Below, piece after piece: positions 37,040 through 48,377 of a stretch of DNA of 64,000 bases (position 1 is the first letter of the stretch; every line of letters starts with the position of its first letter). Origin of the DNA: Planktothrix rubescens CCAP 1459/22 (GTDB lineage: Bacteria > Cyanobacteriota > Cyanobacteriia > Cyanobacteriales > Microcoleaceae); the NCBI GenBank assembly GCA_904830895.1, contig LR882958.1, positions 5,041,501 through 5,105,500 of the forward strand. Direction: 5' to 3'. The notes beneath the pieces were generated by a model. It searched no databases. It was not told where the DNA came from and saw nothing but the letters and a program-made list of their open reading frames with translations. The position numbers and the translations under genes were made by a program.

Positions 37040-38236
37040 TTACCCCAAAATTATATCAGCATTTTCACTTTTAATGATAATTTTACGCTGGCGGTCGAAC
37101 ATTACCGAACCAACCTTAATATTTTTTTCACAATGGGTGTAAATATAGTTCTGGGATCGTTGATCAATCGTCTTTGTTATTTCTCCATAGACCCGAATGA
37201 CCCAATTTTCTCCTTTGATTGCGTCTAATTCTCGCAGATATTGTAAAGCATCTTCGGCCGTTGAACAATTAAAAACTCTTTGTAGATCGAAGGTGGGTAA
37301 TCCTAAGTTAGCACAGTGGGCGGTTAATATTTCTAATCGTCCATCGGCAATATGATGATGGGTATGGAAAATTCCTCCGGCTAATTTGATTAATTTACCA
37401 TGATAACCAAATAATAAGATTGACTTAACCTCTGCTAAGGAGGCACAGACTAACATTGGCCCTAACCAATTGGCGGTTTTAATCATTTGGTGGGGGGAAA
37501 TCCCCATTTTTGCAGCTAATTCTAATCCATTTTCACCAATACAAAATACTAAAGAATTAAATTTTTTTGCTTTTTCTTGGAGTTGAATTTTATACTGTTC
37601 TAATTGTTCGGGAACAGTTAAGGGTTGAGAAATTCCTGTTGTTCCCAGTAAAGATAATCCTTCAACTATTCCAAAAGCAGCGTTAGAAGTTCGGGTTGCT
37701 AGTCGTTTTCCTTGGGGTAAAATAAAGGTAATTAAAATAGATTTATTTGGTGGTAATATTTTCTCAATGTTGGCTAATAATAAAGTTTTAGCATAACGAT
37801 ATATTGCTGTTTGTCCGGTCTTTTGATCATAGCCAATTCCTTCTCCTCCTTTGATAAAAATAGTATCAGAAAGTTGACCCCCCCTAGCCCCCCCTTGGTA
37901 GGGTGGGGAACTTTGTTCTTTAGCCCCCCCTTGACAAGGGGGGGTTGGGGGGGGTTCCGAACTATCCCACCATTCCACCATTGCCCAAATCGGAGTATTT
38001 CGGGTTAAATCTAAATTATCCCCCGGATCAGAACGAGTAATTGCTAAAGCAGAATTATCGGTTAAAATTGCTATTTGTTCAATCGGAATATTAACGATTT
38101 CTGTCGGATCAATTAAATCAATAGATACCTGTTCAATAGACTGATTTCTAGTTTGTAAATATTCCAAAGCCGCCATCGCCGCCGCACAAGCAAAAACGGG
38201 TAGAGTGTATCCAGAACGAGGTTGATTTGTGATCAT
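37040..38236 (-). CDS. cbiD: Cobalt-precorrin-5B C1-methyltransferase CbiD with repeat-derived insertion
   Basis: 398 residues. The N-terminus (RSGYTLPVFACAAAMAALEYL) and IKGGEGIGYDQKTGQ match CbiD, which methylates C1 of cobalt-precorrin-5B in the anaerobic cobalamin pathway. Between residues 93 and 121 the protein contains SSEPPPTPPCQGGAKEQSS and SPPYQGGARGG, encoded by two copies of the dispersed C/G-rich palindrome (37874-37957). CbiD normally passes directly from the preceding strand to the GGEG loop. The frame is kept, so the enzyme may still work with a surface loop added. No cobalamin riboswitch is seen upstream. Confidence 0.85.
   Translation of the reverse strand: MITNQPRSGYTLPVFACAAAMAALEYLQTRNQSIEQVSIDLIDPTEIVNIPIEQIAILTDNSALAITRSDPGDNLDLTRNTPIWAMVEWWDSSEPPPTPPCQGGAKEQSSPPYQGGARGGQLSDTIFIKGGEGIGYDQKTGQTAIYRYAKTLLLANIEKILPPNKSILITFILPQGKRLATRTSNAAFGIVEGLSLLGTTGISQPLTVPEQLEQYKIQLQEKAKKFNSLVFCIGENGLELAAKMGISPHQMIKTANWLGPMLVCASLAEVKSILLFGYHGKLIKLAGGIFHTHHHIADGRLEILTAHCANLGLPTFDLQRVFNCSTAEDALQYLRELDAIKGENWVIRVYGEITKTIDQRSQNYIYTHCEKNIKVGSVMFDRQRKIIIKSENADIILG
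37874..37962. repeat. C/G-rich palindromic repeat inside cbiD
   Basis: Two neighbouring copies of a C-run/G-run palindrome, CCCCCCTAGCCCCCCCTTGG and GCCCCCCCTTGACAAGGGGG, inserted in frame in cbiD. Related elements lie at 49309-49355, 51971-52050 and 56657-56692 in intergenic DNA. Confidence 0.8.
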
Positions 38237-39782: not shown

Positions 39783-40208
39783 TTATTTATCTTTAATTAA
39801 CTCCATAGCTTGATTTAATATTTCTTCTTTGTTGGCTAATTTTTCTAATTCTTTAGCTTCATAAATTCCTTCAGAAACCTCTAAAGATGCTTTATTAATC
39901 GCTTGTTTATAAGCAACTTCTAAAACTTCGTCAAGTTCTTCTGGAGACAGATAATAACTTTGGGAGCAAGGACGTTTATTTTCATCCCTGATTTCAAAAA
40001 TAGCATTCTGAATTGAAACATCCCAAGACCGAGTTGTTCGTTTTTCAACTTGACGTTTAATTAAATGAATTAATAAAACGATAGCATAGCTACGAATGGT
40101 TTTAATAATATCTTTTCGACCCATTTCTTCTAATTCTTCAACAATAGCAAGGGAACCCGGAATATCCCCTTTTAGCAATAATTCCTTTAGGGTTAGTATT
40201 TCTTCCAT
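39783..40208 (-). CDS. DUF29-like protein, copy B
   Basis: 141 residues. The core AIVEELEEMGRKDIIKTIRS with LLIHLIKRQVEKR and TRSWDVSI matches the DUF29 helical pattern, a family common in cyanobacteria with no established function. Residues 1-66 are identical to those of the neighbour at 40251; the C-terminal half has diverged. The unit including about 45 bp of upstream DNA is duplicated. Likely soluble and helical. It sits at the edge of the defence-like region. Confidence 0.72.
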   Translation of the reverse strand: MEEILTLKELLLKGDIPGSLAIVEELEEMGRKDIIKTIRSYAIVLLIHLIKRQVEKRTTRSWDVSIQNAIFEIRDENKRPCSQSYYLSPEELDEVLEVAYKQAINKASLEVSEGIYEAKELEKLANKEEILNQAMELIKDK

Positions 40209-40250: not shown

Positions 40251-40670
40251 TTATGTAATTAACTGAAAAGCTTGATTTAATAGCTCTTCACGATTGACTA
40301 ACTTTTCTAATTCTTTAGCTTCATAAATTCCTTCAGAAACCTCTAGGGATGCTTGATCAATAGCGTTGAGGTAAGCTTCTTCCAAAGTTTCCATTAACTC
40401 TTGATGATCGAGATAATATCCTCCAGATTTTCGGCGTTTATTTTCCTGTTGAATTTCTCGAATTGAATTGCGAATTGAAACATCCCAAGACCGAGTTGTT
40501 CGTTTTTCAACTTGACGTTTAATTAAATGAATTAATAAAACGATAGCATAGCTACGAATGGTTTTAATAATATCTTTTCGACCCATTTCTTCTAATTCTT
40601 CAACAATAGCAAGGGAACCCGGAATATCCCCTTTTAACAATAATTCCTTTAGGGTTAGGATTTCTTCCAT
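40251..40670 (-). CDS. DUF29-like protein, copy A
   Basis: 139 residues, paralogue of the gene at 39783. The first 66 residues are the same and the DNA over 40518-40670 differs from 40056-40208 at only about two positions, whereas the region coding for residues 67-110 is divergent (REIQQENKRRKSGGYYLD against a shorter, different segment). The last 30 residues are again similar. This mosaic points to recent gene conversion or unequal exchange. Function unknown. Confidence 0.72.
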   Translation of the reverse strand: MEEILTLKELLLKGDIPGSLAIVEELEEMGRKDIIKTIRSYAIVLLIHLIKRQVEKRTTRSWDVSIRNSIREIQQENKRRKSGGYYLDHQELMETLEEAYLNAIDQASLEVSEGIYEAKELEKLVNREELLNQAFQLIT

Positions 40671-40804
40671 AATATCTGGAATTGATTAGGGTTAGTTTTA
40701 TTATCACACAAAATATGATTTTTTTTGAAGATAGCGATGGCGTAGCCGCCGCCTTGGAGCATCGCATTTGGGAAAATGAAAACACCCTGCTTAAAAAAGG
40801 GATC

Positions 40805-43800
40805 TCACTGCGGTTTATTCACCGTCACCCCATCACACAAACGTCTATCCTCCTCACTCACACTCGAACTATTCTCCAGATAATCCTTCATCCACTCACA
40901 AGCCGATACCATTAATAGATCTAAATCCAAATGCCACAGCTTGATAGTCTTGTCTTCACTCCCAGAAGCCAATGTTTTACCGTCGGGACTCCAACTCACA
41001 CTACTGACCGACTCCTCATGGCCCTTGAGAGTCTGCAACAGTTGACCCTCTCGACTCCACAGCTTAATGGTGTTGTCTAAACTCCCAGAAGCCAGGGTTT
41101 GACCATCGGGACTCCAACTCACACTATAGACCGAACTCTTATGGCCGTTAAGAGTCTGCAACAGTTGACCCTCTCGACTCCACAGCTTAATGGTGTTGTC
41201 TTCACTCCCAGAAGCCAAGGTTTTACCGTCGGGACTCCAACTCACACTCCAGACCGACTCCTCATGGCCGTTAAGAGTCTGCAACAGTTGACCCTCTCGA
41301 CTCCACAGCTTAATGGTCTTGTCACGACTCCCAGAAGCCAGGGTTTGGCTGTCGGGACTCCAACTCACACTATAGACCCCACTCTCATGACCCTTGAGGG
41401 TTTGCAACAGTTGACCATCTCGACTCCACAGCTTGATGGTCTTGTCACGACTCCCAGAAGCCAGGGTTTGGCTGTCGGGACTCCAACTCACACTATAGAC
41501 CTGATTCTCATGGCCGTTGAGAGTCCGCAACAGTTGACCCTCTCGACTCCACAGCTTAATGGTGTTGTCAAGACTCCCAGAAGCCAGGGTTTTACCGTCG
41601 GGACTCCAACTCACACTCATGACCGACTCCTCATGGCCGTTGAGAGTCTGCAACAGTTGACCCTCTCGACTCCACAGCTTAATGGTGTTGTCTAAACTCC
41701 CAGAAGCCAGGGTTTGACCATCGGGACTCCAACTCACACTATAGACCAAATTCTCATGGCCGTTGAGAGTCCGCAACAGTTTACGCTCTCGACTCCACCA
41801 CAGCTTAATGGTGTTGTCTTCACTCCCAGAAGCCAGGGTTTTACCGTCGGGACTCCAACTCACACTCATGACCGACTCCTCATGGCCGTTGAGAGTCCGC
41901 AACAGTTGACCCTCTCGACTCCACAACTTCATGGTCTTGTCTAAACTCCCAGAAGCCAGGGTTTGGCCGTCGGGACTCCAACTCACACTATAGACCCCAC
42001 TCTCATGACCCTTGAGGGTTTGCAACAGTTGACCCTCTCGACTCCACAGCTTAATGGTGTTGTCCCAACTCCCAGAAGCCAGGGTTTGGCTGTCGGGACT
42101 CCAACTCACACTATAGACCCGCTCTTCATGACCCTTGAGAGTCCGCAACAACTTGCCCTCTCGACTCCACAGCTTAATGGTCTTGTCTAAACTCCCAGAA
42201 GCCAAGGTTTTACCGTCAGGACTCCAACTCACACTCCAGACCGACTCCTCATGGCCGTTAAGAGTCTGCAACAGTTGACCCTCTCGACTCCACAGCTTAA
42301 TGGTCTTGTCTAAACTCCCAGAAGCCAGGGTTTGGCCGTCGGGACTCCAACTCACACTATAGACCTGATTCTCATCGCCATTGAGAGTCCGCAACAGTTG
42401 ACCCTCTCGACTCCACAGCTTAATGGTCTTGTCTAAACTCCCAGAAGCCAGGGTTTGGCCGTCGGGACTCCAACTCACACTCCAGACCGACTCCTCATGA
42501 CCCTTGAGAGTCTGCAACAGTTTACCCTCTCGACTCCACACCTTAATGGTGCTGTCATAATCCAGCTTAAATGGGGTTTTATAACTCCCAGAAGCCAGGG
42601 TTTGGCCGTCGGGACTCCAACTCACACTCATGACCAACTCCTCATGGCTCTTCCAGCTATTCTGCTCTCTGATGTTATACAACGTCTTCTCAAGGGTGGT
42701 AATTGTTTGCAAACGGGTATCATTTTTTTCCCAAACAGAAGGATCTAATTTTTTCAGTTGTTTGGCTGTGGTTAAGGCTTCTTTTAGGGCTAATAATTCT
42801 TGACCCTGACTGAATAATTCCCTCGCAGAAGAAGCTTTTAACCTGACTTCTGTGGCTGCTAAAGTTAACTTTGCTTCTCTGACTGCAATCGTAACTCCAA
42901 CGAAAGCAACGAAAGCAACGGCAAAGGCGACACCAGAAATCAGCCCGATTAAAGTAGCTCGTTGTTTGGCTTTTGATAAAATTTCATAAGCTTTTTGTTT
43001 AGCATCTAATTCTACTTGCATCGCCCGTTTATCTAATTCTTCACTGGCTGCTAAATATTGATAATCTTCACTACTCAGGCTTTTTCCCTCAGCCCATTTT
43101 TTCGCTTCTTTTAACGCTTCCCCCAGCAACAACCGGGACTCATCCTGACGTCCTGACTTTTCCCAAGCACTAAACGCTTCTGCATAAGGTCGTAAATCTG
43201 CTAAAGCTGTTTCTACCCAAGTTAAATTAAAAACCGTTGCATATATTTGATTATAAACGTTGAGTTTTCCCTCATGTTTAACCACTAATCCTGATAGCCG
43301 CAACATCACTTGATCAGAGTTATCTTCCGCCGGAATTCCCTGTTGTTGTAAGATTTGTTGATAGAGTCCGAGAAGTCGTCCCGTGCGTTGATGTCCGGCA
43401 TAAAAAATGCGAGATCGAATTGTTCTTAAATGTTCGGGAGTGTCCTGTCCTTCCCAGTTGGTAATAATTCGCTCGTGAACTAAATTTTCCACCCATTCTG
43501 TCTCTTTATTTAGGGGAATTTTCTGCTCCGTTTCTCGAATCAGTTTACAGAGTTTTTGGGTTAAAAACGGTTGTCCTCCCGACCAATATAAGACCGCTTC
43601 TAATACCTTTTCTGGGTTATCAGTTTGAGCTATAAATCCATCGGCGAGGGGCTGAGATTCTGTTAACTGAAATCCGGTTAATTCTATCCCTCGACCAATA
43701 TTAAAGGGAGTGCGTCGTTTATCTTGAATTAAATCCGGTGGCGTTGTCACTCCTAATAAGGCAAAGGTTAACCGTTGATAAATCGGTTGATCTGCACGAT

Positions 43801-44311
43801 GATTATAACATTCTCGAATTAAGGCAAAAAAGTCATCAATTTTAAAGGGTAAACTTAAAATACTATCAATTTCATCAATAAAAATTACAATCGGTTTTGT
43901 AATTAATTTCAGAAGAATGTCTTCTAAAAACCTGCCAAACCGTTGCGTAAAGGATAAATGTTGATGATTTTCCCACCATTCCTCCGAGTCAAATTCCGTA
44001 TATAATTCTAAGCTATTACTAATTTCTTCAATCATCCCTCGATACCACTGTTCGGGGGTAATTTCTAAAGTTCCAATGGCGGTAATATCAATCGCCACAC
44101 AAGCATATCCTTCCTCGTCTAACCGTCGCCTGGTTTGCACCCTTAAACTGGATTTTCCCATCTGACGACAGTTAAGAACATAACAAAATTCTCCCTGTTT
44201 TAAAGCCTCGTAAAATTCCTGATCAGCCGCTCTTTTAATATAGGTGGGAGCATCAACGGGAAGACTCCCCCCCACTTGATAATCATAGCGAGATTGGGAA
44301 TTATTATTCAT
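40805..44311 (-). CDS. STAND-type AAA-like ATPase, transmembrane helix and 14 WD40 repeats
   Basis: 1168 residues. The N-terminal AAA-like ATPase domain (about 10-330) has Walker A RQMGKSS at 49-55 and Walker B VIFIDEID near 142. A single transmembrane helix lies at about 450-473, then a short helical linker, then 14 WD40 blades (about 555-1128) of 41 residues each, all matching HE-x2[17 protein letters not shown]. Fourteen blades would make two seven-bladed propellers. STAND ATPases with WD40 sensors are signal-transducing switches, including in innate immunity-like systems. It starts 2 bp after the CHAT gene stop. Confidence 0.85.
40929..42646. repeat. Fourteen near-identical 123-bp WD40-coding tandem repeats
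   Basis: The coding DNA for the WD40 blades is a tandem array of a 123-bp unit, with many blocks (for example CTCCCAGAAGCCAGGGTTT) identical between units. Blade 1 contains an 8-residue insertion (YKTPFKLD region) and blade 7 one extra Trp. Variation is concentrated at a few codons: after HE, two residues later, and the D-K/N pair. Because of the regular composition the opposite strand also stays open, creating false reading frames. Confidence 0.9.
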
Positions 44312-44313
44312 AA

Positions 44314-46032
44314 TTATACCCCCAAGCGATCGCTAAAATAAAGCCGATAAAGATTACACAACGGAATCACATCATTTCCCCGAAATTTAACTAAACCCAT
44401 ACTTCTAAGTTTAAAGCCTAAATTGCCTTCTAACCGCACAGGATTCTCAGAAGCAACAACTCTTTTCATCGCATTAGCTAATTCCCCATCGTTTTGATTT
44501 AAGTTAGATAAAAGACGACGTAAATGATCACTATATAACCCTTCTTCTGTCGGAGAAATTGTGATAAATTCTTCTAGTGTTAAACGCGATCGCGCCATTT
44601 CATACAACGCTTTTCTAACTAAATAGGGGTGTCCATCTACCATTCCCATTAAAGTTTCTATTTCTGAATTTGACCAGTTTAAACCATGTCGTTTAACTAA
44701 ATCTGTAACTTGTTCTCCCGTTAATTCTGGTAATTCAATCGGTAAACCCACATTAAAGGGAGATTGATTAATATTTAAGGGGATATACACTTCTTTAGAA
44801 TGGGCAATCACTAGCCGTAACCGTTGCCATACAGGTTCATTTTTGCCCTTTTCGTGCCAAGTTCGCAGTAACGCAAAAAATTCTTGAGCAATTTCAAGAT
44901 GTTGAAACACCTGATCAACTTCATCTAATCCTAACGTTAACGGTTCAGAAATTGTTTTCAATAAATACCGTTGAAAATAGTTACTACATTTGGTTTTACT
45001 CCCTAAACCTCCTTTCCAAAAATCCGATAATTTATCCTCTAATTCTAACTCATTGGCAACATTAGCACAAAATCCTTGTAAAAACAAATCAAGACTATTG
45101 AGAGAATCATGATCAAATTCTTGAAAATTCAGATAGGCGGTTTGATGTTGATGTTCTTTTGCAGAGTTTAGAATCCGTTGCATTAAAGATGTTTTTCCCA
45201 TTTGTCGGGGAGCTTTAATTCTAATTAATGCCCCTGTTTTTAAGATCGTTTCATAACAATCTGATTCAATGGGAGGACGTTCAATATAAAGGGAAGAATC
45301 CAAACGCACCGATCCTTCTGGACTATCCAAACTTTGAGAACAAATGGTTGATTCTGTTAAAGAATCTGGATGTTCAATAATCGTTTCAAACGCTCTTGTA
45401 TTCTCGTGATTTGTAATCGTCTCTGCGATTTCTAATTCTACTGAAGGATCTAAATCACATTGTCGTTTAATAATCGGGTTTAATTCCTCTGGAATTCCTG
45501 CCATACTAATACTCGTACAGCCATATTTATAAGCAAATTCAAAGTCTTTACCAGCACCCAAAGCATCATAAAATCCTATCGCAAACTCAATGGCTGCTTT
45601 ATCTCCTACCGCCTGTTTCATCCCAATTACATAAGGGATATGATGAACAATTCCTTGGGCTTGTATTTCCGAGTAACAGGCATTTAAAACCACACATTCT
45701 ATATGCTCTTTAAACAGTTTAAATAAACTCGCCAACGCCTTCGCATTCACCAGTTGAACTTGTCCATTTTTATCTTCTAAAGCTAACCCCCCTTCTCCCA
45801 CTCCATGACCAGAAAAGTGAATAATTTGAGGGTTTAATTCTAAAACCGCACGCTGCATATCTCTGGGAGTAACCGCCCATCTTTGCTCTAAATTAAATTC
45901 GGCTCTTTTTTTAGATCGTTTTAATCCTTCTTCAATTTCTCTAACTTCTTCATCTAAACGCAATGGAGTAGAAGATTTAGGATTTGCGGCTAAAAATAAA
46001 ATTGTTTTCTTCTTGCGACTGACACCACTCAT
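44314..46032 (-). CDS. CHAT (caspase-like) protease and AAA-like ATPase protein
   Basis: 572 residues from ATG 46032, chosen because AGGAG lies 8 bp upstream; a GTG start at 46056 would add 8. The N-terminal CHAT domain (about 10-190) has the caspase-type dyad, His76 in HFSGHG and Cys119 in VVLNACYS. It is followed by a variable linker and a STAND-like ATPase (about 245-540) with Walker [10 protein letters not shown] and Walker B TLGLDEVD. The gene ends 2 bp before the WD40-ATPase gene. CHAT proteases act in bacterial gasdermin and Craspase-type immunity, so a stress- or phage-triggered protease is inferred. Confidence 0.85.
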
Positions 46033-46298
46033 CAATAAAACTCCTACTATACACACTATACGAGGTGAAAAATTCTCAATTTCCTACGATTGAGTTTAAT
46101 TTTAAACCCTATTGTCCAGAATTCACCTCTGTTTTAACATAAAAATATTAATCCGCCTAGAAATTGCATTCCCAGGTGGGTGAAAGCTAAGAGAGTTAAG
46201 TTTCCCAATCCCTACCCTAAACCGATTTAGGATTGCTATCCCACTCCCACCCCAGTTGAATTGGGTATAATTAAAAAATCTCTCAAACATCAGATGTT

Positions 46299-46565
46299 AT
46301 GAATACTCTTAAATACAAGACAACTATTAAAAACGGTAAACTCGATTTACCCTCCCTCGATTTACCCTCCCTCGATTTGCCAGAAGGAACTGTTGTTGAG
46401 GCAATTTTATTAATTGGCAAATCAACCGAAACCGATGAAACAGATTATCTACTATCTACAGAAGCTAATCGCCACCATCTAAAAGAAGCTGTAGAATCAC
46501 TTAAACATCCTGAGAACTATATTTATGTCGATATTCTGAGTAACCCCATAGCTTCAAACCACTGA
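46299..46565 (+). CDS. Phd/YefM-like antitoxin candidate
   Basis: 88 residues. The C-terminal part LLSTEANRHHLKEAVESLKH followed by ENYIYVDI resembles the toxin-binding end of the Phd/YefM antitoxin group. The N-terminus contains a perfect triplicated pentapeptide, LDLPS-LDLPS-LDLPE, from a 15-bp DNA tandem repeat. It sits 2 bp before a DUF4926-type gene, forming a small two-gene operon divergent from the CHAT gene. A possible -10 (TATAAT, 46266-46271) lies upstream. The toxin partner is not certain. Confidence 0.6.
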   Translation: MNTLKYKTTIKNGKLDLPSLDLPSLDLPEGTVVEAILLIGKSTETDETDYLLSTEANRHHLKEAVESLKHPENYIYVDILSNPIASNH

Positions 46566-46567
46566 TT

Positions 46568-46864
46568 ATGAACGAAATTCAAGAATACGATTTGGTGGCT
46601 CTAACCGAAGATGCGATCGCTACCCACAAAGTCACCAATCAGCAAATCCTACTCCGTCGAGGGCAAATGGGAACAGTTTTGATGTCTTTTGATCAAAAAG
46701 CATTTTTAATTGACTTTACAGATCAAGAAGGCAATACTTTTGCAATGGAAACTATCGAAACCGTTAAACTTTTACGCCTTATTAATGAACCTGAATTAGT
46801 AGGGTGTTCCATCGCAGCGCCCGCACCAATATTAGATCACAATCACAGAGAAACGTTTAATTAA
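46568..46864 (+). CDS. DUF4926-like protein
   Basis: 98 residues. YDLVALTEDAIATHKVTNQQ, then LLRRGQMGTVLMSF and KAFLIDFTDQEGNTFAMETIE, match the small beta-rich DUF4926 family, often found beside antitoxin-like genes. The last 20 residues (GCSIAAPAPILDHNHRETFN) look like read-through beyond the family end. They overlap the convergent TumE-like gene by 33 bp. Co-transcribed with the Phd-like gene. Function unknown. Confidence 0.6.
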   Translation: MNEIQEYDLVALTEDAIATHKVTNQQILLRRGQMGTVLMSFDQKAFLIDFTDQEGNTFAMETIETVKLLRLINEPELVGCSIAAPAPILDHNHRETFN

Positions 46865-47098
46865 TTGTCTATCATCTTTTTGCCAATGAAAACTATACTT
46901 AATTATTTTTACTTGTTCTGATTGAATTTCAAAAAATTCAAACATTTCTAAAAAACTACGATCTTTTAAAGTTAGTCGGTATCGCCATAGTCCTTTAGTG
47001 ACTTGTACTTCTTCTCTAAGAATGGTGAAACCTATCACTTCTGGACAAAGAGCAATTAACGATTTTATCAAAGCTAAATAATCTTCAGCATTGATCAT
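46832..47098 (-). CDS. TumE-like (DUF6516) toxin candidate, shortened C-terminus
   Basis: 88 residues. LRLT-type pattern YRLTLKDRSFLEMFEFFEI and IIKYSFHWQ match the DUF6516/TumE family of presumed toxins. Family members usually continue with a WDNAPHH-type ending; here the protein stops after LIKRFSVIVI, and the 3' 33 bp overlap the convergent DUF4926 gene. It may be truncated and inactive. It overlaps the upstream antitoxin-like gene by 4 bp (47095-47098), the usual toxin-antitoxin arrangement. Confidence 0.6.
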   Translation of the reverse strand: MINAEDYLALIKSLIALCPEVIGFTILREEVQVTKGLWRYRLTLKDRSFLEMFEFFEIQSEQVKIIKYSFHWQKDDRQLIKRFSVIVI

Positions 47099-47394
47099 AA
47101 TGCTTTCTCTAAATTACCAATTTTGACTAAAATATCTTGACGCAATTTACACAAACTAAACCACTCAAAAAAATCCATCTCATCCCCTAATATTCCCGCC
47201 TCAAATTGTTGTATAAACTGTTCAGAATCCAATTTATAAGTTTGCTCAAATTTGCTAATATCCTGATTATAAATTGCTAACTTCTGCTGATGACGAGTCA
47301 AAATAATGCTGAGAAGTTGCCCAATAATTCGATCTAATTCTGTGCAATCGCTACAATTTTCACTTAGGAGTTCTAATTTTTCTAATGTATTCAT
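47095..47394 (-). CDS. Antitoxin-like partner of the TumE-type gene
   Basis: 99 residues, helical. The C-terminal segment FEQTYKLDSEQFIQQFEAG then GDEMDFFEW resembles a small protein family that frequently precedes PIN or DUF6516 toxin genes in cyanobacteria, with a conserved FxxxY...F...F-x-G-x-x-GD-x-x-DFFEW pattern. No DNA-binding motif is evident. Its start codon sits within the first copy of a 102-bp repeat that also precedes the VapB-like gene, so the two operons may share promoter sequence. Confidence 0.6.
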   Translation of the reverse strand: MNTLEKLELLSENCSDCTELDRIIGQLLSIILTRHQQKLAIYNQDISKFEQTYKLDSEQFIQQFEAGILGDEMDFFEWFSLCKLRQDILVKIGNLEKAL

Positions 47395-47491
47395 AATTAC
47401 CCCGATTAACGGCTAAACTTGATTAATATTAACTCTAGTATACAATAGTTAAATCATTATCTTGAATTAACGTAATTGAACTCATGATCCA
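47390..47491. repeat. 102-bp direct repeat, left copy
   Basis: Runs from TTCATAATTACCCCGATTAA to CTCATGATCCA. It differs from the copy at 48276-48377 at two positions (AAACTT/AGACTT, AATATT/AATGTT). It contains the start codon of the gene ending at 47095 on the minus strand and a truncated copy of the start of the creatininase-family gene (CATGATCCA). Confidence 0.9.
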
Positions 47492-47549
47492 CAAGAAATT
47501 GTGATTGTTTACTCAGCAAACCGGGTTTCTTAGTCAAATCAAAATTAAA

Positions 47550-47978
47550 CTAGCGATTATCAACAAAAAGAATAACAAAACCCTCTTGAGTAAAATGATG
47601 ATCGTGAGTTAAAATTCGACTGATTTCCATTTGCTTCATCGTCATCATTGAAATACAATCTGTTAAACTATATCCCTTATCTAGTCGCTGTTCATATAAC
47701 TCCAAAGCACCTAAAAACGTTGACCGAGATTGAGATAATACTACCACCTTTTCTGAGTCAGCATTTAGTAACTGACGAACCGTAATAACCGCCTGTTCGC
47801 GCAACTTTGTACCACCATCAGATAAAAAATTAAGAACTTCAGTTAACACTTCATCAGTCGTAATAATTTTAGTCTTACCTAGTTTTGTTGTAAGTGCGAT
47901 CGCTTGACGGTGGAAAGTATCACGGGGACTGAGTAAGGCAACCCAATAAAAGGTATCAGCAAAAATTAGCTCAGTCAT
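47550..47978 (-). CDS. vapC: PIN-domain toxin (VapC-like)
   Basis: 142 residues of the PIN ribonuclease fold. Acidic metal-binding residues are visible: Asp8 in FADTFYW, Glu around 43 in TDEVLTEV, Asp in YSLTDCISM and Asp in THDHHF. VapC toxins cut tRNA or rRNA when freed from the antitoxin. Its ATG overlaps the antitoxin stop by 4 bp (47975-47978). The module lies between the two 102-bp direct repeats. Confidence 0.88.
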   Translation of the reverse strand: MTELIFADTFYWVALLSPRDTFHRQAIALTTKLGKTKIITTDEVLTEVLNFLSDGGTKLREQAVITVRQLLNADSEKVVVLSQSRSTFLGALELYEQRLDKGYSLTDCISMMTMKQMEISRILTHDHHFTQEGFVILFVDNR

Positions 47979-48280
47979 GATTGCGTATTTTTGTAGAGAT
48001 AGCGATCATGATGTTCTGCACCATCCCTTGGCAAAACATCCAAATCCTCATCCGATAAATTACTAACAAAAGAACTAGCAATTTCTAACAAAAATGCACC
48101 CGTATCTTCTGCCGGATCTAAAGGGTTTTCTGTTAAATTGGAACTGGGAAGTGGTTGCTGATTTGTATTGAGTCGCCATTCTAAAAAGCTAACAAAATCT
48201 AAAACCTCTTGCAAAACAGGTTCAGATAAAGTTTCTAAATGCTCTAATTTGTCTAAAATAAGCTCTTTGATTGCGTTCAT
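47975..48280 (-). CDS. Antitoxin of the PIN-domain pair (VapB-like, DUF2281-type)
   Basis: 101 residues. The N-terminal helices IKELILDKLEHLETLSEPV then EVLDFVSFLEWRL match the DUF2281-type antitoxins that pair with PIN toxins in cyanobacteria, with a flexible C-terminus that would cover the toxin. Not a ribbon-helix-helix or AbrB VapB by eye. The start codon lies inside the right 102-bp repeat, which supplies a possible promoter (TATACT with a TTCAAG 18 bp upstream on the minus strand). Confidence 0.75.
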   Translation of the reverse strand: MNAIKELILDKLEHLETLSEPVLQEVLDFVSFLEWRLNTNQQPLPSSNLTENPLDPAEDTGAFLLEIASSFVSNLSDEDLDVLPRDGAEHHDRYLYKNTQS

Positions 48281-48377
48281 AATTACCCCGATTAACGGCT
48301 AGACTTGATTAATGTTAACTCTAGTATACAATAGTTAAATCATTATCTTGAATTAACGTAATTGAACTCATGATCCA
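48276..48377. repeat. 102-bp direct repeat, right copy
   Basis: Second copy of the 47390-47491 repeat. It spans the divergent intergenic space between the VapB-like gene and the creatininase-family gene and includes both start codons. On the minus strand it carries TATACT (within TTGTATACTAGAG) as a candidate -10 element. Confidence 0.9.

Follow-up and report, generated by a model that had tools for sequence, protein, structure and literature searches.

Two adjacent AAA_35 ATPase genes in Planktothrix rubescens

The window analysed here is the whole stretch of 64,000 nucleotides from Planktothrix rubescens CCAP 1459/22 (contig LR882958.1, positions 5,041,501 to 5,105,500). Its minus strand carries two neighboring genes, an upstream gene that we call A and a downstream gene that we call B, whose products both contain an ATPase domain of the Pfam family AAA_35 (PF14516). 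In A this domain is joined to a caspase-like CHAT domain, and in B to an array of WD40 blades. We find that the two genes are a real, conserved, and modular two-gene system. Their features are the following:

44314..46032, minus strand: gene A, the predicted output half, a CHAT-AAA_35 protein of 572 aa (open reading frame and Pfam)
45805..45807, minus strand: codon of the predicted catalytic His76, in the motif HFSGHG (motif reading)
45676..45678, minus strand: codon of the predicted catalytic Cys119, in the motif LNACYS (motif reading)
44332..45321, minus strand: A-type AAA_35 NTPase domain (Walker A RQMGKTS, Walker B LGLDEVD, and a GHPYL motif)
44312..44313, no strand: gap of 2 bp between gene A and gene B
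40805..44311, minus strand: gene B, the predicted sensor half, an AAA_35-transmembrane-14xWD40 protein of 1168 aa (open reading frame and Pfam)
43226..44272, minus strand: B-type AAA_35 NTPase domain (profile search, motif alignment, and model comparison)
42887..42964, minus strand: predicted transmembrane helix of B, approximately residues 450-475 (hydropathy only)
40904..42658, minus strand: 14 WD40 blades with 83% mean identity, varying chiefly at five columns

The length given for A follows from an ATG start; an alternative GTG 24 bp upstream would give 580 aa. Pfam places the CHAT domain (PF12770) at residues 24-163 (E 2.3e-10, 40.8 bits against a cut-off of 24) and AAA_35 at residues 238-567 (E 2.7e-142, 473.9 bits against a cut-off of 27). 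The PADLOC "chat" model also matches A (E 2.2e-22), and the sole clear sequence match in the PDB is the SAVED-CHAT protease 8tl0 (E 1.2e-13). The NCBIfam search returned nothing for gene A, and all its matches to gene B were below cut-off. An initial annotation, made from the DNA alone, had assigned the CHAT dyad to His76 and Cys119, and these residues indeed lie in the two motifs listed. Conservation of the dyad among close homologs had been chosen beforehand as the point on which that annotation could fail: both motifs are intact in 21 of 22 CHAT-A sequences (that of the window among them), the remaining one being truncated. As far as motif conservation can tell, this dyad rules out an inactive CHAT domain.

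Gene B matches AAA_35 with 124.9 bits (cut-off 27) in the genome profile search, and a phmmer search of its ATPase against the PDB found no match. Pfam reports 14 WD40 stretches and hydropathy a single strong hydrophobic segment, in agreement with the 14 blades and one transmembrane helix first annotated. A strong PADLOC match of B to HEAT-ARM_XIII falls within the WD40 part and was given no weight. Among B proteins of at least 600 aa, hydropathy finds a strong hydrophobic segment in 34 of the 43 that are of the WD40 type, where it separates the ATPase from the sensor, and in eight of the 17 others. The B protein of one sister species (G008, locus L057), with an ATPase domain 95% identical to that of the window, has by eye a coiled-coil-like stretch and no hydrophobic segment, and a strictly membrane-bound sensor was therefore set aside. 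At L146/L147, in a CHAT pair, a periplasmic-binding-protein domain follows the segment (Pfam run on L146), which suggests that the sensor there lies outside the cytosol.

The two ATPases share a Pfam family yet form two sister subfamilies, A and B. Walker A, Walker B, and a GxP-type motif, the last a mark of STAND NTPases, are conserved across 70 A and 50 B domains. Structural models of both domains match NLR/apoptosome and ORC folds and appear to adopt the STAND-type arrangement of nucleotide-binding, helical, and winged-helix domains found in NLRs and Apaf-1; Avs3, Avs4, or Avs5 structures are also among the fold matches of the models.

Ordered pairing and co-inheritance of A and B

We compared gene order at loci picked from ranked match lists rather than at random, which include many orthologs: 60 regions, a second set of 20 regions, nine other loci, and six regions of the window's own genome. 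The pair counts leave out one locus with its CHAT gene in pieces (L019, where B follows), one with no downstream sequence (L016), and A fragments shorter than 350 aa. Among the 85 A genes with at least 2.5 kb of downstream sequence, 55 are followed on the same strand by a B gene within 2.5 kb, 32 of them within 150 bp. A downstream B on the opposite strand occurs once in the 85, and an upstream B on the same strand in four of 78 A genes.

The set holds 21 CHAT-A genes, including the window's, of which 20 have downstream sequence. In 19 of these 20 a B gene follows on the same strand within 2,173 bp (in 12 cases within 115 bp), L145 being the gene without one. Co-occurrence of the ordered pair in relatives had likewise been named in advance as a decisive observation, and it was found.

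The A and B distances over 29 pairs are strongly correlated (r = 0.85; the highest value in 5000 shuffles was 0.26). When partners were exchanged only inside each of the seven genomes with more than one pair, the mean r was 0.41 (P = 0.0006). In 19 of the 29 pairs the nearest relatives of A and of B share an operon. Chance adjacency was ruled out by the order and strand counts and the partner shuffling; the same counts together with the matching distances indicate that the pair behaves as one inherited unit. The sequence comparisons thus support a directional, co-inherited pair, as expected from the coupling first proposed for two same-strand genes 2 bp apart.

The window's own genome has 11 AAA_35 matches and holds three A-then-B pairs: the CHAT/WD40 pair described here, a TIR-AAA_35 gene with an AAA_35-GAF gene, and a 434-aa A with an AAA_35-WD40 gene. 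Two A genes and one B gene are solitary in the regions read.

No third gene is conserved across the CHAT loci. At four of these loci (L142, L143, L148, and L149) a gene resembling the restriction-enzyme N-terminus HSDR_N lies between A and B (Pfam on L143 only). At three loci of related genomes a caspase gene (Peptidase_C14) comes after the CHAT pair (L012 4247-6403, L013 from 13319, and L014 from 14016); the Pfam run covered the L012 copy, whose gene lies on the other strand. One locus (L060 797-10819) has a CHAT-AAA_35-cyclase gene and then two B genes of the WD40 type, separated by a small A-type remnant.

Homogenization and variable columns of the WD40 array

Against the 83% mean identity of the window's blades, other arrays of the CHAT clade range from 72% to 81%, except L015 at 37%. 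By sequence, the blades are without positional counterparts in close relatives: the best match of a blade is at the same position for one of 14 blades between the window and G001, one of 14 between the window and G008 (which has seven blades), one of 14 between L013 and L014, and two of 14 between L060 and L061. Blades of L060 and L061 are 80% alike within an array and 58% between arrays, which indicates homogenization.

Variation in the 39-column blade profile is concentrated at columns 4, 5, 7, 23, and 25. These hot columns were picked from eight of the nine CHAT-clade arrays, L015 (37% identity) being left out. Leaving out each of the eight in turn yields the same five columns every time, and the top five of the left-out array share three to five of them. 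The overlap is two to five across all 23 arrays with at least six blades, and three to five in six out-of-sample arrays from CHAT pairs of the second set of 20 regions (71-93% identity). Of five other out-of-sample arrays, L155 (82% identity) shares four hot columns and four arrays at 36-49% identity share two. The sharpest example is the array at L143 4567-8625, with 93% internal identity and variation nearly all in the five columns (mean entropy 1.12 there vs. 0.01).

By the rule of Wu 2012 (PMC3419727) for binding hotspots on the WD40 top face (R1, R1-2, and D-1), columns 5, 7, and 23 correspond in our mapping to R1-2, R1, and D-1, respectively. The ratio of nonsynonymous to synonymous polymorphism (pN/pS) in the eight arrays is 1.2 to 3.2 at the five columns vs. 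0.18 to 0.43 elsewhere, and four further arrays give 0.8 to 1.9 at these columns. Distinct variants at hot columns are synonymous in 17 of 157 cases, against an expected share of 0.178 (P = 0.02); elsewhere the count is 127 of 256, a sign of strong constraint.

Fungal NLRs have been reported to contain WD40 repeats with high internal conservation, concerted evolution, and few variable interface positions (Dyrka 2014, PMC4986451), and variable hotspots were described for WD40 proteins with highly repetitive sequences, of which half are bacterial (Hu 2017, PMC5587647). A homogenized, hotspot-variable WD40 array is thus not new in itself. A recognition surface that changes in this way suggests a role in immunity or in telling self from non-self, more than the binding of a single, unchanging metabolic ligand.

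Output domains of A and sensor domains of B

Outputs of A were tallied by Pfam on 92 segments, taken from the N or C terminus of 90 A proteins, counting segments (25 of 27 families are listed). The 92 comprise TIR_2 (30), kinase (19), CHAT (18), cyclase (nine), GerE (four), PGAP1-like hydrolase (two), GGDEF (one), and trypsin (one), among others, and across the family A outputs also include HTH. The partner domains of B are WD40, GAF, PAS with cyclase, GUN4, trypsin with COP23, and periplasmic-binding protein, and further CHAT, kinase, His kinase, and MORN with a sub-threshold TPR. Judged by these domains, A mostly carries outputs and B mostly sensors across the family. The division is not absolute, since some B proteins carry CHAT, cyclase, kinase, or His kinase domains.

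The initial annotation had taken the WD40 protein as the sensor and the CHAT protein as the protease effector. The assignment of roles fits because A mostly carries outputs and B mostly sensors, but its scope has to be widened: several A outputs are not immune effectors, and the A/B chassis, with its kinase, cyclase, GGDEF, and HTH outputs, is better regarded as a general switch.

Distribution and genomic context

In the set made up of the window's own genome and its relatives, 58 of 59 genomes have an A-type match and six of 59 (own genome counted) a full-length CHAT-A match. In the phylum as a whole, 114 of 386 genomes have an A-type match. Full-length CHAT-A, judged by aligned range, is found in at least 11 of the 386, a lower bound because three candidates were scored per genome and part of the matches is listed; one additional genome (G235) was recognized from reading its locus. 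An A/B pair without CHAT, with the genes 934 bp apart, occurs in Candidatus Parabeggiatoa (L020), which we take to belong outside the cyanobacteria. Phage-borne copies gave no match among 50,697 phage records.

Related pairs are also carried by plasmids. A Calothrix plasmid has a CHAT-A gene followed by a MORN-type B gene. On the Nostoc plasmid pTCL26-01_A (L173), a gene for a CHAT-TIR-AAA_35 protein precedes B beside a second A/B pair, the two pairs lying together with NACHT, WD40, and pentapeptide genes. A-type AAA_35 proteins are also encoded on the Candidatus Chlorohelix allophototropha plasmids NZ_CP128401 and NZ_CP128402.

Comparison with a genome of the same species (G422) delimits the surroundings of the pair:

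40717..48357, no strand: accessory block holding the pair and toxin-antitoxin-type genes

In G422 the flanks align at ~95-98% identity, but between about 40717 and 48357 the block is absent, with ~1.4 kb of other DNA in its place. That genome has seven AAA_35 matches, all of them elsewhere, and the loci around these matches contain no match to the CHAT profile. In five further genomes (G008, G003, G006, G001, and G005) the sequence near the flanking gene gave no A, B, or CHAT match; two of these, the sister species G008 and G001, have their CHAT pair on another contig than the flanking gene.

Within the block lie a TumE-type toxin gene and its partner (PADLOC candidates PDC-M44B and PDC-M44A, E ~1e-7, in a scan of ten window neighbors), a gene for a PIN-domain protein whose partner resembles DUF2281 (below cut-off), and a DUF4926 gene. 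The block begins directly behind two tandem DUF29 genes (window positions 39783-40208 and 40251-40670) with near-identical N-terminal halves. The G422 copy of cbiD (L167 3584-5110) is 110 aa longer than the window copy (37040-38236), the extra length being an in-frame run of short SPPYQGGAQEQ-like repeats.

Comparison with known systems

The pair resembles several described systems in part. It shares with the fungal HNWD/NWD receptors (HET-E) a STAND ATPase joined to an internally conserved WD40 array with interface hypervariability (PMC4986451), seen here as 83% identity with hot columns, and the death-type outputs of HET-E-type receptors may be likened to the predicted CHAT output. However, the HNWD/NWD receptors are single fungal polypeptides with NACHT, whereas the pair uses AAA_35 and places sensor and output on two bacterial proteins. 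Avs proteins follow the same effector-NTPase-sensor logic (PMC10907252) in one protein, and the pair splits these parts over two; PADLOC, whose library may not hold every Avs model, gave no Avs-named match.

A protease gene beside an NTPase gene is also seen in multicellular prokaryotes, where caspase genes occur in operons with AP-ATPase genes via Death-like adaptors (Kaur 2021, PMC8195603), and EACC1-caspase two-gene systems similarly place a caspase-type gene beside an NTPase or sensor gene (Kaur 2020, PMC7159879). As described there, those systems use adaptor domains or a constant caspase; in the A/B pair each protein has its own NTPase, and the two NTPases come from one family. The WD40 proteins of Hu 2017 (PMC5587647) have near-identical repeats and variable hotspots as in gene B, with caspase and kinase annotations near the cyanobacterial WD40 genes, but a paired ATPase partner like the one present here is not described in the parts consulted. 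The SAVED-CHAT protease 8tl0 matches A in fold as well as sequence, yet it has a SAVED domain and no AAA_35 ATPase was matched.

The suggestion that a pairing of two separate STAND proteins may be undescribed has held so far: in the literature searched, outside which most subscription papers and preprints fall, we found neither a description of the A/B pair nor, among 5.39 million papers, any mention of the accession PF14516. Likewise not found in print is the link of a homogenized, hotspot-variable WD40 array to a paired STAND-CHAT system.

A proposed split STAND receptor and its alternatives

From sequence and structural models, we lean slightly toward reading the CHAT/WD40 pair as a split receptor of the STAND type, NLR-like and consisting of two proteins, with a role that is probably in immunity or self/non-self recognition. 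In such a receptor, a ligand would bind the double WD40 propeller at its variable top face and switch the ATPase of B. B would then recruit or co-assemble with A through the two related ATPase domains, a step suggested by their pairing, fold, and co-evolution. This would crowd the CHAT domains of A, which could become active Cys/His proteases and cleave a target, leading to dormancy, death, or signaling.

Several observations weigh against this reading. Kinase, cyclase, GGDEF, and HTH outputs need not be immune. No B lies within 2.5 kb downstream of 30 of the 85 A genes, and by rough output labels B is within that distance in none of seven kinase1-type, one of five TIRb-type, and four of 14 HTH3-type A genes (HTH-TIR proteins may count as HTH3, and the Pfam tally is preferred). 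The fold comparison of the ATPase models gives ORC proteins scores similar to those of NLRs, and the A model is of poor quality in its CHAT part (pLDDT <50 at residues 17-52 and 74-80). The transmembrane helix is compatible with the window's WD40 array on either side of the membrane. Some arrays outside CHAT pairs are equally uniform, the replacement excess is modest, and the hot columns were selected from the same arrays. Finally, the co-evolution of A and B may stem from linkage and co-transfer.

One alternative is a general environmental or metabolic switch, in which B reads an internal or periplasmic cue that A relays and CHAT is a regulated protease rather than a defense effector. GAF, GUN4, periplasmic-binding protein, and His kinase domains on B fit such a role, as do the fusion of CHAT to a cyclase in L060 and the kinases (19), cyclases (nine), GerE (four), and GGDEF (one) among the 92 A segments. 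We nevertheless consider it rather unlikely for the CHAT pair: its arrays are homogenized and vary at binding hotspots, and its absence from the same-species site and placement on other contigs in two sister species fit accessory conflict genes better. Those same surroundings, with toxin-antitoxin-type neighbors beside two coupled adjacent genes, recall a guard or antidote, by which B would keep a potentially toxic CHAT-A inactive and free it when B is disturbed. That only one of 20 CHAT-A genes is without a downstream B agrees with this, but in other output classes A often occurs without B, and the conserved ATPase motifs and diversified sensor of B would exceed the needs of an antidote, making the idea improbable. 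It is more improbable still, to the point of being hard to credit, that the genes are merely linked and travel together without joint action. Linkage alone could produce matching trees, and related pairs do lie on plasmids; strict order and strand, recurrence with many domain combinations, and three separate pairs in one genome all speak against independence.

Extending the split-receptor reading from the CHAT/WD40 pair to the family, we tentatively suggest, at somewhat short of even confidence and by analogy, that A/B pairs may constitute a class of STAND receptors built from two proteins, a sensor-helper arrangement in bacteria comparable to the paired NLRs of plants. B, with exchangeable sensors, some of them outside the membrane, would drive hetero-oligomers with an A of exchangeable output, and the CHAT/WD40 version would be self-diversifying. 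If this is true, an NLR-like switch of two chains is present in many copies in filamentous cyanobacteria. Its sensing and executing parts would be kept apart and brought together in new combinations; one of its outputs would be a caspase-like protease, and its WD40 array would diversify in the manner of fungal NLRs. A common signaling or immune chassis, hardly covered in the literature, would then be opened to direct test.

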